Of a DNA stretch of 64,000 nucleotides, positions 5,988-64,000 are shown one piece after another (the stretch's first letter is position 1; each line of letters opens with the position of its first letter). The notes under the pieces are model-generated. The model was not told where the DNA came from. It made no database searches and saw only the letters and a program-made list of their open reading frames with translations. The stretch comes from Candidatus Methylopumilus turicensis. GTDB lineage: Bacteria > Pseudomonadota > Gammaproteobacteria > Burkholderiales > Methylophilaceae. The stretch spans positions 62,001 through 126,000 of the forward strand of contig NZ_LN794158.1 in the NCBI RefSeq assembly GCF_000953015.1, given 5' to 3'. The position numbers were made by a program, and so were the translations under genes.

Positions 5988-6007
5988 GTGAGATACGTCA
6001 TCAAGCG

Positions 6008-60210: not shown

Positions 60211-61440
60211 ATGATAGGAATTGATACTTTTGATCAAATTAACATCCCAACTCGTCATCGCACCGCAGCAATCCCAGGAACGGTTACGCCAGTTCCACAC
60301 TACCCAAGAAAGTTAAAAGTTTATCTGAACAACGCTTCGCCATACTGGTGGGCAACCTATTTTGATAGAGGAAAGACTTATCGTCATAGCTGTAAAACTC
60401 AGGATAAATTTGAAGCTTTCAGAGAGGCGAGAGTATTTTACGAAAAGCTTCTGATAACCAAATATCAGCACCCAGCCCATTTGCTAGAACATCAGATTAG
60501 TGATGCGAATATGCCTGTCAAGGGGATACAAGTTGATTTGCGATTGAAGAAAATCGCATCGCAATGGCTGTCTCGTCGCGCTTCAAAATGGACACCTGCG
60601 CATACAAAACAGGTTGAGAGCAGGCTAATCAATAACATTCTTAAGTATGTTGCCGATAAAAATATACAGCGAATTACGAGAAATGACTTGCTCGGGCTAT
60701 TACAGAAAATGGAAGAGCGCGGAGCATATGGTTTAGCTCGCCGTGTACTAAATGACTGTCGCCAAATATGGCAATACGCAATCATCATTGGTGTATGTAA
60801 ACATGACATTACCATCGGTTTAAATAAAGCATTACATGAGCATACTGTCGTTCATTTTAATGCTGTAACACCCAAAGAATTACCTAAGTTAATGAGTGAC
60901 ATCGCAGGATATGAAAAATTAGGTGATTCAATTGTGAGATATGCCTTACAACTTATGGCGCTGACATTTGTTCGCAAGAATGAATTATTACAAGCCACTT
61001 GGGATGAATTTGATTTAGAAAAGGCTATATGGAAAATTCCAGCAGAGCGGATGAAAATGAGGCTTGAGCATGTTGTGCCATTGAATAAACAAGCTCTCTT
61101 AATACTTAATCATATTAAATCTTCTTATCCAAGCGATGGCTATGTATTTCATAAAGCAAAAAAACCATTAGTTGATCACGCATTAATTTATGCGCTTTAT
61201 TGGATGGGATACAAAAACAGAATGACAGTACATGGATTTAGGGCAGTCGCTAGTACTGTTCTTAATGAAAACGAATTTAGACCTGATGTGATTGAAAGAC
61301 AGTTAGCTCATACTGATACTAACCAAGTCCGTCGAGCCTATAACCGAGCGCAGTACCTAAATGACCGAATTGCGCTAATGAATTGGTGGGGCAATTACTT
61401 GGAAAAAATGACGCCTTTCAAAGTCAATTTGATAATATAA
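60211..61440 (+). CDS. Tyrosine-type site-specific integrase
   Basis: A 409-residue phage/island integrase. It has an N-terminal arm-binding-like region (PRKLKVYLNNASPYWWATYF), a core-binding domain (about 105-205), and the catalytic domain with Arg255 (LTFVRKNELLQATWDEFD), Lys282, His341/Arg344 (HGFRAVAS), His367 and nucleophile Tyr377, so the active site is complete. GAGG lies 8 bp before the ATG. It reads away from the broken moaC end, the usual position of an integrase at one edge of an integrated element. Confidence 0.93.
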   Translation: MIGIDTFDQINIPTRHRTAAIPGTVTPVPHYPRKLKVYLNNASPYWWATYFDRGKTYRHSCKTQDKFEAFREARVFYEKLLITKYQHPAHLLEHQISDANMPVKGIQVDLRLKKIASQWLSRRASKWTPAHTKQVESRLINNILKYVADKNIQRITRNDLLGLLQKMEERGAYGLARRVLNDCRQIWQYAIIIGVCKHDITIGLNKALHEHTVVHFNAVTPKELPKLMSDIAGYEKLGDSIVRYALQLMALTFVRKNELLQATWDEFDLEKAIWKIPAERMKMRLEHVVPLNKQALLILNHIKSSYPSDGYVFHKAKKPLVDHALIYALYWMGYKNRMTVHGFRAVASTVLNENEFRPDVIERQLAHTDTNQVRRAYNRAQYLNDRIALMNWWGNYLEKMTPFKVNLII

Positions 61441-61491
61441 ATCGACTACATTTTTGTTCCGGAATTAGTTATTAAAAATCATATACATAAC

Positions 61492-62652
61492 CCAGTCTTA
61501 GGTGATGCTGGTGCGTTAGTAGCATTCGCATCTACAGCAAACGCTGGTATCACAATCCCAGCTGGTGATTGGACTGTTGACATCGGTGGTAACGTTAACG
61601 CTTACTACACAAACACAAACTTCAGTGGCAATCTTAACAAAGAAACAACAAACACAATTCAAACTGGTTTGTTGCCAACAGCGCTTGCTATTGGTGCTAA
61701 AACACGTCAAAACGACTTAGACGTTGCTGTTCAATTCTCATTCTGGACTGGTATTAACGCTTCTTCAGCTGACAACTTGAATGGTTCAGGCGCTTCTAAC
61801 GGCGGTTTGGGTTACAGCTCATTGAACATTCGTCAATCATTCTTGTCATTTGGCGATGCTTCATGGGGTACTGTGAAGGCTGGTCGTGATCTAGGTGTAT
61901 TCGGTTCTGATGCTATCTTGTCAGACATGACATTGTTAGGCGTAGGTTCTAACGCTGGCTCTACTGGTTCATCAACATTGGGTCGTATCGGTTCAGGCTA
62001 CTTGTATGCTGACTGGTTAGCTCAATTACAATACCAAACTCCAAACTTCAATGGCTTCCAAGCAACTGTTGCAGTTCAAGAAGCGTTGGGTCAAGTTGAC
62101 AACAGCAACCTAGGTTATGCTGGTAAAGTAACTTATGATTTCGCAGCTAATGATGTAACTGGTCGCGTATGGGTTGGTGGTGTTACTACTAAACGTCAAA
62201 ACGGTGCAGCAGCTCGTGGTGCTGACGGCCTAGCAGTATCTGCTAGCGAAGTTACTGCGGACGCATATGAAGTTGGTGCAAAAGTTGCATACCAAGGTGC
62301 TGAATTGGTTGGTTACTACTACGATGGTCAGAACATGGACGGCGGCGTAGGTCAATTCCCTGGATCAACATTCGCTGGTGCTGCAATTGCAGAAACAAAG
62401 AACTCAGGCGGTTATGTACAAGGTACATTCAAATTGCCAACAATCGGTACTAAACTTGGCGCTTCATGGGGCGTAAACAACATTGGTGCTGCTTCACGTG
62501 AAGCTTGGATTGTTGGTGCTTACCACCCACTTACTAAGTCAGTTAACTTAGTAGCTGAGTACAACAACCTTGAGACAGATACTGGCGTTGCCGGTGCTAA
62601 TGCAACAGGTAAAGCTCGTACAGTTTCACTTGGCGCGATCTTATTCTTCTAG
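61492..62652 (+). pseudogene. Gram-negative porin gene without start codon (5'-truncated)
   Basis: The mature porin is complete in style: GITIPAGDWTVDIGGNVNAYY after a signal-peptide tail (LVAFASTANA), glycine-rich strands, NIRQSFLSFGDASWGTVKAG, and a C-terminal LGAILFF. Upstream codons lack any ATG, GTG or TTG: the first usable start in frame is TTG at 61669, inside the barrel. About 8-15 signal-peptide residues, the RBS and the promoter are missing. Its codon use is strongly biased (AAC, GGT, CAA, ACA), as in a highly expressed gene, unlike the neighbouring integrase. It is probably silent here. Confidence 0.85.
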
Positions 62653-62680
62653 GATTAAATTCTTAGTTTAATATGAATAA

Positions 62681-62706
62681 AACGGCACCTTCGGGTGCCG
62701 TTTTTT
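62681..62706 (+). terminator. Terminator after the porin
   Basis: AACGGCACC-TTCG-GGTGCCGTT with a stable tetraloop followed by six T: a very strong intrinsic terminator, as expected for a highly expressed porin. Confidence 0.95.
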
Positions 62707-62719
62707 ATTGGATAAAAAA

Positions 62720-62974
62720 ATGAAAAAAATTACTTTATTAGTACTCTTAAGTTTGAGTGGCTGTGCACAATTAATGCATGGTGCTGTTCAACCTGTCACG
62801 GTTAAAAACTTACAAGAGAGGATTTATTTTACGACTTGTTCTGGTGTTGTTGAGACTTCTGGGACGTGTCAAGATAAGGCTAGAGAAACTTGCCAAGGTG
62901 GTTTCAATGTTATTGAGCGATATGAGACACCAACTGGTGCTCGTCGTGAATTAACATTTCAGTGCAAAAAGTGA
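62720..62974 (+). CDS. Small cysteine-containing lipoprotein, copy 1
   Basis: 84 residues with a lipoprotein signal (LLSLSGC, lipidated Cys15) and a mature domain with four further cysteines in the pattern C...TCQDKARETCQGGFNV...RRELTFQC. No named family is recognised. The next gene and a downstream fragment share the same C-terminal pattern, so this is one member of a tandem family. The ATG at 62720 is chosen because the lipobox then falls at the usual distance. Probably anchored in the outer or inner membrane. Confidence 0.65.
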   Translation: MKKITLLVLLSLSGCAQLMHGAVQPVTVKNLQERIYFTTCSGVVETSGTCQDKARETCQGGFNVIERYETPTGARRELTFQCKK

Positions 62975-63029
62975 TTTTTAGTGGTGGGAAGAAATGGCAG
63001 TACTTTAAGAAATCTTATTTTGGGTTTAT

Positions 63030-63251
63030 ATGAAAAAATACTTAGTAATATTAGTGTTTCTTTTGTCAGCGTGTGGTGGGGTTAATCAACCTGATGTGCG
63101 CAGATGGGAAACTGTTTCATGTAGCAGCAACAAAGGCTGGGATGCTTGCATGAGTGTTGCAGCTAAGTCATGTCCTAAAGGCTTCGATCTTAGAAACCAA
63201 GAAGAAGATATGATGACGCAGAAACGAGTTATGCAGTTTTCTTGTAAGTAA
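63030..63251 (+). CDS. Small cysteine-containing lipoprotein, copy 2
   Basis: 73 residues with lipobox LLSAC (Cys15) and a mature part VSCSSNKGWDACMSVAAKSCPKGFDL...KRVMQFSCK. Shared with copy 1 are the spacing of the four mature cysteines, the G-F-[DN] turn and the K/R-R-x-x-x-F-x-C ending. Function unknown; two disulfides in the periplasm are likely. It is 55 bp after copy 1 and runs directly into a third, broken copy. Confidence 0.65.
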   Translation: MKKYLVILVFLLSACGGVNQPDVRRWETVSCSSNKGWDACMSVAAKSCPKGFDLRNQEEDMMTQKRVMQFSCK

Positions 63252-63255
63252 TTAA

Positions 63256-63369
63256 GCTGATTGCCATGACCGCGCAAAGCAAACCTGCCCTAATGGCTAT
63301 GACTTGAAAGAAAGAAACCAAAGCCCTGTGGGTGGAAAACGTGAGTTGGTGTTTCAGTGTAATAAATAA
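63256..63369 (+). pseudogene. Fragment of a third lipoprotein copy
   Basis: In the frame after a TAA at 63253-63255 the sequence reads ADCHDRAKQTCPNGYDLKER...GGKRELVFQCNK and stops. This aligns with the C-terminal halves of copies 1 and 2, with both cysteines, the CP(N/K)G(Y/F)DL turn and the RELxFQC ending kept. There is no start, lipobox or N-terminal half. It begins 4 bp after the copy 2 stop codon, as expected from unequal recombination or deletion in a tandem array. Confidence 0.8.
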
Positions 63370-63469: not shown

Positions 63470-64000
63470 TTAAACATAGTGTGTTTGCTGAATGCGTCCA
63501 GCGTTGTGATTACGCTGAATATCACTGAGCGTGTCAAAGTACTTGCGCATATCACTTAAGCTCTGTTTGGTTTGTAATTGACCCAATACATAGCTATCTT
63601 TTAGCTTGATATTTTCCTGCCCTAAAATCTGCTGTGCGCGAGGCAGGAAATCATCTGCTGTGATTAGCCCAAAGTCCAATAACTGAAAGCGAGAGCGAAC
63701 TGCTTTCTCGATTTTCATAAAGTCATTCGCTGTGGCAATCACAATCACTTTGTCATTGAATGTATCCATTGTTTGCCAAAGTGCTGCCAAGCTATTCTTT
63801 ACCTTATCAAGCTCGTCAAAAAGTACGTACTGATACTTTTGAGCAGCCCATCCAAAGTTGTTAATGGTGCTTAGCTGATTGATCGCATTACTCACATCAA
63901 ACTTCTCCTCACCAACTAAATGAACAGTATTGGGAGGGAAGCCTTCAATCAAAATCGGCATTAAGTGTGCTGCTGTACTTTTGCCTGTGCCATTTGTGCC
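63470..64000 (-). CDS. AAA+ ATPase, clamp-loader-like (5' end beyond window)
   Basis: The frame stays open to the window edge. Walker A GTNGTGKST is encoded at about 63974-64000, Walker B-like YVLFDELDKV with sensor ATANDF and an arginine-finger-like VRSRFQ follow, then a helical lid. The short, simple layout resembles phage or plasmid clamp-loader/replication ATPases (T4 gp44-like) rather than chromosomal DnaX, which has a zinc module. At least 176 residues are in view. It likely belongs to the mobile element's replication or maintenance functions; the partner genes lie beyond the window. Confidence 0.75.
   Translation of the reverse strand, partial: GTNGTGKSTAAHLMPILIEGFPPNTVHLVGEEKFDVSNAINQLSTINNFGWAAQKYQYVLFDELDKVKNSLAALWQTMDTFNDKVIVIATANDFMKIEKAVRSRFQLLDFGLITADDFLPRAQQILGQENIKLKDSYVLGQLQTKQSLSDMRKYFDTLSDIQRNHNAGRIQQTHYV

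Follow-up and report, generated by a model that had tools for sequence, protein, structure and literature searches.

Tyrosine integrases that lie directly in front of start-less porin genes in Candidatus Methylopumilus turicensis probably recombine at a short site, GCTGGTGC, within the porin signal-peptide codons and, judging from the comparison of sequences, swap the expressed porin-lipoprotein cassette. The locus that led to this proposal is in the window, by which we mean the whole stretch of 64,000 nucleotides that was analyzed. There, an integrase of 409 aa (60211-61440, plus strand; Pfam Phage_integrase 1.8e-20, Phage_int_M 2.9e-20) lies directly 5' of a porin body (61507-62652, plus strand), an open frame that lacks the conserved start and the first signal-peptide codons and is here termed headless. 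The flank of the integrase takes the place of the leader, the start codon, and the initial codons of the signal peptide; the frame is open from the integrase stop onward, and no ATG, GTG, or TTG occurs in frame before 61669, far into the gene. The proposed arm-type site, TCGACTAC, is at 61442-61449 and the proposed exchange core, placed by alignment of the junctions, at 61507-61514, both on the plus strand. The window porin is 62-67% identical to the porins of relatives and 67% identical to the headed copy of its own genome. Pfam Porin_4 (PF13609) matches the headed copy at 1.5e-21, and the window copy alone is without a Pfam match; its structure model resembles the general porins PorB, Omp32, and OmpF, with a mean confidence of 65.8 at which details are weak.

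The genome, a single contig of 1.755 Mb, contains four porin-lipoprotein cassettes, one headed and three headless, each of the latter behind an integrase, and in all its headless porins the integrase flank passes into signal-peptide codons at the core. Only the copy at 1,610,415-1,611,629, beside dgt (in the order aroK-aroB-dgt), has the leader and initial codons that relatives conserve, and an extended form of the core (up to two mismatches) is found exactly four times in the genome, once per porin. A scan for consensus promoters gave no distinction between headed and headless loci, with promoter-like sites no more frequent than in shuffled sequences at either; thus, what is said here of the leader rests on its conservation.

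The association of headless porins with integrases extends across the Methylophilaceae. In a set of 20 loci plus the window, an integrase ending at most 112 bp upstream on the same strand is present at 9/9 headless as against 0/12 headed porins, and a dgt-like gene lies 5' of the porin in 11 of the 12 headed loci. In a second set of 80 named loci, kept from 98 relatives whose titles include Methylophilaceae, Methylobacillus, Methylotenera, and Methylophilus, all nine integrase-adjacent porins are headless and none of the 67 headed porins has an integrase (Fisher 3e-10, with related genomes not being independent). Six of these nine loci are shared with the 20-locus set, and the two counts are not independent. 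The 80 also include two headless porins without an integrase (L169, L176) and two cut by the contig start (L123, L173); L174 is counted as headed, with a deletion, and four other headed loci (L120, L125, L128, L162) have less than 600 bp of upstream sequence. At L169 (Methylophilus rhizosphaerae) and L176 (Pseudomethylobacillus aquaticus), the headless porin without this integrase is near position 6001, and a headed porin is on the same contig in opposite orientation.

A search of 187 genomes of the family yielded 24 integrase matches in 20 genomes. The 16 integrases with at least 55% identity are followed by a headless porin of this family in 14 cases and by a headless Porin_5 porin in two; the eight at 41-45% identity all lack a porin behind them, and two of them are back to back with a seemingly headless one. 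These last two porins, without an evident start, are at L191 1-1198 (G064) and L192 1-1196 (G135), next to different integrases (44% and 42% identity). The Porin_5 cases (L184 from 2735 and L198 1328-2689, in G007 and G009; Pfam 2.4e-23 and 4.2e-21) have integrases with internal stops; the docks may also serve a second family of porins. In 11/16 loci with porin-type integrases, TCGACTA or TAGACTA precedes the core by 63-66 bp; one of the remaining five has GCTGGTGC 78 bp on, and four are without a match to the core. The pattern GACTAC-N45-74-GCTGGTGC proved unspecific, with 15 matches in 10 genomes of the genus, eight of them integrase-porin junctions, and four matches for the reversed control pattern. 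Internal stops are present in 4/16 porin-type integrase genes and one more is split between frames, indicating that some docks are dead. Five of the 14 integrase-porin loci have no lipoprotein match (L182, L183, L185, L186, L188); hence, the lipoprotein is not needed for exchange. Order-wide, 5/399 genomes match at E 1e-85, namely the organism's own and four at 43-48% identity.

Comparison of loci between species, with one genome per species, bears on whether integrases and porins have kept company. In three locus pairs, the integrases are 95-98% identical in DNA and the porins behind them 64-74%. Over the 1.2 kb left of the core, taken in 100-bp steps, identity is 87-100% in three pairs, save for a single step at 74% beside the core, and 70-88% in a fourth; right of the core, it is 83-93% in the first 100 bp and mostly 40-75% in the rest. 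Synonymous divergence of integrase and porin at matching loci is 0.073/0.869, 0.198/0.821, and 0.239/0.764, so that the difference between the porins is not only a matter of fast protein evolution. The fourth pair is reversed, with an integrase dS of 1.80 versus 0.90 for the porin, and counts against exchange. Placing the integrase pairs as sisters on the porin tree is rejected in three of four cases (AU p 6.6e-6, 3.8e-75, and 0.016), and the window's own pair, at p 0.12, is not rejected, which again counts against exchange. Among the eight headless loci, integrase and porin distances are uncorrelated (r -0.17), and those of porin and lipoprotein go together (r 0.73, with 39/20,000 permutations as high); for all 20 cassettes, the latter correlation is 0.50 (0/5,000 permutations as high). 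The nearest relative by integrase is the nearest by porin in 0/8 loci, and the nearest by porin is that by lipoprotein in 5/8. On the porin tree, headed and headless loci are intermixed, with 7 changes between the two labels (mean of shuffles 8.4, 118/500 as low).

A rival account is that homologous recombination between porin paralogues shuffles the cassettes, with the integrases as bystanders. The first 100 bp past the core are 83-97% identical between copies and could serve such an exchange, and the right-hand boundary marked by the lipoprotein tail scar in the window (see below) lies away from any core. However, homologous recombination would not fix the left boundary at one 8-bp core beside an integrase and an arm motif at a set spacing, nor would it confine these integrases to porins (16/16), and we regard this account as quite improbable.

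Larger rearrangements also have their ends at these sites. Between the genomes G000 and G002, a segment of ~18.7 kb, bounded by two inverted integrase-porin junctions, is inverted relative to the outer flanks, with its ends at cores; from their sequences, we take its genes to be metX-, metW-, and aspS-like. The integrases keep to the outer flanks. At one end of the inversion, the porin moves with the segment (the porins of G000 site C and G002 site B are sisters, 98/94), and at the other end the porins differ between the two genomes. The head site of G000 has the same orientation as site B, and the ~10.9 kb between them are arranged as in an integrated island. In metagenome-assembled contigs of at least 10 kb (44 of the 80 loci), the porin gene is near a contig end in 13/44 versus 2.2 expected, which fits mixed populations and also plain repeats.

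The ~10.9 kb between these two sites of G000 carry toxin-antitoxin genes, a second small integrase, and a clamp-loader-like gene, as would be expected if the porin signal-peptide codons were simply the attachment site of integrative elements, the headless porins being by-products and the cargo of the island being what matters. By-products should decay, yet the headless porin bodies have no stop codons, and dN/dS for three headless pairs is 0.22, 0.22, and 0.30, beside 0.39 and 0.19 for two headed pairs and 0.28 and 0.39 for two mixed ones. These codon-level comparisons indicate that the putatively silent bodies are kept open and are under purifying selection. Further, the element side brings a whole divergent porin and a lipoprotein, and at site C of G000 and G002 the gene map has only integrase, porin, and lipoprotein between chromosomal genes. 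We therefore think it unlikely that the porins are mere passengers, although an element that swaps the porin on integration would allow both accounts to hold. “Silent” is to be read as putative because an ATG just before the core could provide a short signal peptide at three loci (L061, L063, L113). Across 19 porins, six longer or disordered loops are the most variable (majority residue 0.16-0.43) and the short turns and the constriction loop the least (0.74-0.99); we infer which of the loops face outward.

Downstream of the window porin are two small lipoprotein genes and a fragment, which a preliminary description of this DNA had interpreted as a tandem family with a decayed third member; the start-less porin behind the integrase, the chief feature of the locus, did not figure in it. 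Copy 1 (62720-62974; 84 aa) belongs to a porin-linked type A, copy 2 (63030-63251; 73 aa) to a type B, and the 37-codon fragment (63256-63369, 4 bp past the stop of copy 2) is a 3' scar left by a former lipoprotein of type A; all are on the plus strand, and the positions agree with those first given. Each of the two copies has the lipobox cysteine and four more cysteines, and the fragment, a 3' end, stays open over its 37 codons. The cysteine pattern that had been seen in all three is beyond chance: C50, A54, C58, R76, F80, and C82 (P0004 numbering) are invariant in six sequences of the genome, and the profiles of the copy 1 subfamily (22 sequences) and the copy 2 subfamily (9, including copy 2) align at E 7e-19. 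A profile of four own-genome copies recovers copy 2 at E 2.7e-4. Thus, the sequences form one homologous family in an accessory region, as had been supposed, and one without a name, because all Pfam and NCBIfam matches are below the cut-off. The suggestion of an immunity-type protein found no support here: its sole hint is an NCBIfam T6SS-immunity lipoprotein match of copy 2 at E 0.0088, whose score of 16 bits is below the cut-off of 43.

The fragment resembles another subtype of the copy 1 subfamily. Its DNA is 89% identical over 109 bp to the 3' end of the lipoprotein gene in the matching island of G001, another genome of the genus and the source of its best relative, and 85-86% identical to the 3' ends of two lipoprotein genes of its own genome. 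Similarity between the window and the G001 island runs from 60069 through the integrase, porin, and hairpin to 62710, is interrupted, and restarts at ~63260, inside the fragment, for another 3.6 kb; the fragment is for this reason seen as what is left of a previous occupant. This alignment suggests that an older porin, together with most of its lipoprotein, gave way to a cassette that comprises a porin and copies 1 and 2. Copies 1 and 2 come from different subfamilies and so did not arise by simple duplication in tandem; with two subfamilies and a scar present, we rejected the tandem expansion of a single lipoprotein family. Of the recombination first envisaged, the traces are supported; growth and decay in place are not. 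A second exchange site in the lipoprotein gene was not apparent, the scar boundaries of the window, L058, and L030 agreeing within about ten codons and not to one base. At L030 (G004), a lipoprotein tail at ~1500-1640 is shortly 3' of a TCGACTAC motif, perhaps a deleted dock; porin and integrase matches are absent from the 3.1 kb examined.

The search for partner genes beside homologues, proposed in the preliminary description, had a uniform outcome for the copy 1 type: all 22 full-length members are preceded, at ~70-110 bp, by a same-strand porin. A profile search found lipoprotein matches at E 0.01 or better in 20/61 genomes; its 39 rows comprise the 22 full-length type A members, 5 truncated or interrupted ones, and 12 weak, mostly type B-like ones including copy 2. 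These 12 are near a porin match only in the window, and type B is not porin-linked in the relatives searched. The organism's own genome has three more full-length copies, each directly downstream of a porin. Between porin and copy 1 is a terminator-like hairpin (62679-62706, plus strand; a consensus scan reported it on the minus strand only, since the T run was counted as stem), and a G+C-rich hairpin followed by T-rich sequence is present in each of the 21 porin-lipoprotein gaps read of the 22. The presence of the hairpin in all of them suggests that the lipoprotein is probably made by read-through, which would hold its dose low relative to the porin. The lipoprotein would be on the periplasmic side of the outer membrane, serving its own porin type, and a physical partnership with the porin is a possibility that we put forward tentatively. 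Cys15, 40, 50, 58, and 82 are kept in 22/22 members and may pair as disulfides; following the signal helix, the model has a strand-strand-helix-strand-strand order (pLDDT 83.5, pTM 0.64).

There are also phage connections. The phage family phrog_9924 is matched by 21/22 members at E 0.1 or better (best 6.9e-6) and by P0004 at E 3.2e-7 over residues 35-83, the mature domain. A homologue from Burkholderia phage JC1 (profile E 3e-13) is the sole match among 50,697 phage records, and the best match in a viral structure search is a phage lipoprotein (E 8e-4). These matches are what one would expect of a phage-derived receptor-blocking or exclusion lipoprotein that is no porin helper. Nevertheless, matches to the Cor exclusion family (phrog_1119; E ~0.06-0.07) are confined to residues 1-18, 1-22, and 1-19 of P0001, P0002, and P0004, and the gene is tied to a porin in 22/22 cases and varies with it, making such a blocking role, as read from sequence, an unlikely one. 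The JC1 homologue, JC1_17, is followed by JC1_16 at L014 6001-6589, on the strand opposite to its nearest neighbors; a terminator annotated 18 bp before JC1_17 recalls the porin-lipoprotein gap. The best VIA structure match is chain 7bgl_1 (Z 5.7, 66 residues, rmsd 5.0, 17% identity), presumably the YecR lipoprotein of the Salmonella flagellar LP ring; a Z below 8 may mean only a common arrangement, and middling VIA matches were not used as homology. Pfam gave ten weak families for the 22 members, with no YecR model among them. Sequence comparison with solved structures gave one chance match (E 2.4), and Foldseek against the PDB with the lipoprotein model gave none at 1e-3. Among viral contigs, neither the 14 candidate stretches for the lipoprotein nor the 20 for the porin included a relative, and integrases were limited to three distant ones at 34%. 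Plasmids gave four weak matches; of two opened, one is without an annotated porin within 4 kb and the other is unannotated there.

Past the scar, the first gene of the island encodes a clamp-loader-like AAA protein (63470-64000, minus strand; Pfam AAA 1.3e-8) and leaves the window. Its gene order is the same in four related loci, and the related L055 copy matches PHROG clamp loaders. A conserved island core of a small tyrosine integrase, two unknown proteins, and the clamp-loader-like AAA protein is seen at five loci in four genomes (e.g., L055 7754-11087, and window 63470-64000 with L074 180-2719). Another tyrosine integrase, of 335 aa (L074 7495-8502), is at the far end of the window's island, and similar ones are at island ends in G005 and G009. 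Frequent neighbors of the porin-lipoprotein pairs are TPR proteins, which match glycosyltransferase-9 weakly or methyltransferases clearly, and DUF6445 proteins (L054 5983-7365, L058 5576-7237, L070 5169-6308, L068 5155-5838); these neighbors may modify the surface.

The closest known system is the Bacteroides SusC/SusD shufflon, in which the tyrosine recombinase Tsr0667 acts, SusD is the partner lipoprotein, and several genes without promoters share a single start that bears one. In Bacteroides fragilis, Tsr0667 is described as a master invertase of shufflon-type multiple inversions at outer-membrane protein gene clusters (PMC4747536). Both systems have a tyrosine recombinase (at the window locus, the Phage_integrase protein at 60211-61440) and one headed gene with several headless alternatives joined within N-terminal codons. 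They differ in that the shufflon concerns TonB-dependent SusC in local clusters, whereas here the protein is a general porin barrel, and the silent copies are at several chromosomal sites, each with its own integrase and some in mobile islands. On integration in icd, phage 21 and e14 bring a replacement part of the target gene and form an in-frame hybrid; that part is a short, nearly equivalent 3' end, unlike the whole mature porin, with 26-36% different DNA, and the lipoprotein gene found here. Phage PA-2 changes a host porin through lysogenic conversion by its Lc porin, but this is a complete porin gene with its own signals and not a start-less body spliced onto a host head. The E. coli PinQ inversion is described as a recombinase-driven change of phage adsorption at porins (PMC12529663). 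In that account, PinQ is a serine recombinase that makes a chimeric blocking protein and leaves the porin genes unchanged (PMC12529663), whereas here the porin itself would be exchanged. The flexible islands of the Methylophilaceae are described as variable and linked to phage evasion, in a paper that also describes insertion clusters with xerC at their borders and large inversions (PMC10872708); its main text does not contain the word porin and ties other islands to phage evasion. Among open-access papers, we found no report of integrase-driven porin exchange.

Taken together, we propose a two-gene outer-membrane cassette of porin body, terminator-like hairpin, and lipoprotein that exists as one expressed-looking and several silent-looking copies. 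The integrase would act on the core site in the head and on that before the silent cassettes, direct sites leading to excision or integration of an island and inverted sites to inversion of the segment between them. By either route, the single head would be joined in frame to another porin body, porin and lipoprotein would change together, and the old cassette would fall silent but stay intact for reuse. The benefit would be a changed surface under phage pressure; that phage evasion drives the exchange is plausible, at somewhat less than an even chance. More generally, exchange of a major porin would be expected to alter permeability and phage receptors. At the level of the family, the chances are nearly balanced that the Methylophilaceae carry a chromosome-wide porin exchange in which lineage-specific tyrosine integrases hold a reservoir of start-less porins (general porins, and Porin_5 in two genomes), often with their own lipoprotein. 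These porins would be fused in frame to the single expressed signal-peptide head, in part through large inversions of the chromosome, and a population would vary its phage receptors in this way. The exchange is directly testable, each proposed junction being placed to the base; isolates of Ca. Methylopumilus exist, as described in PMC10872708. The proposal also provides a first hypothesis for the role of a lipoprotein family that is common to phages and bacteria here. If true, surface variation would have a new source in the exchange, at an integrase site within the signal peptide, of a whole general porin together with its lipoprotein; this would concern abundant freshwater bacteria and would link mobile islands, chromosome inversions, and phage receptors.
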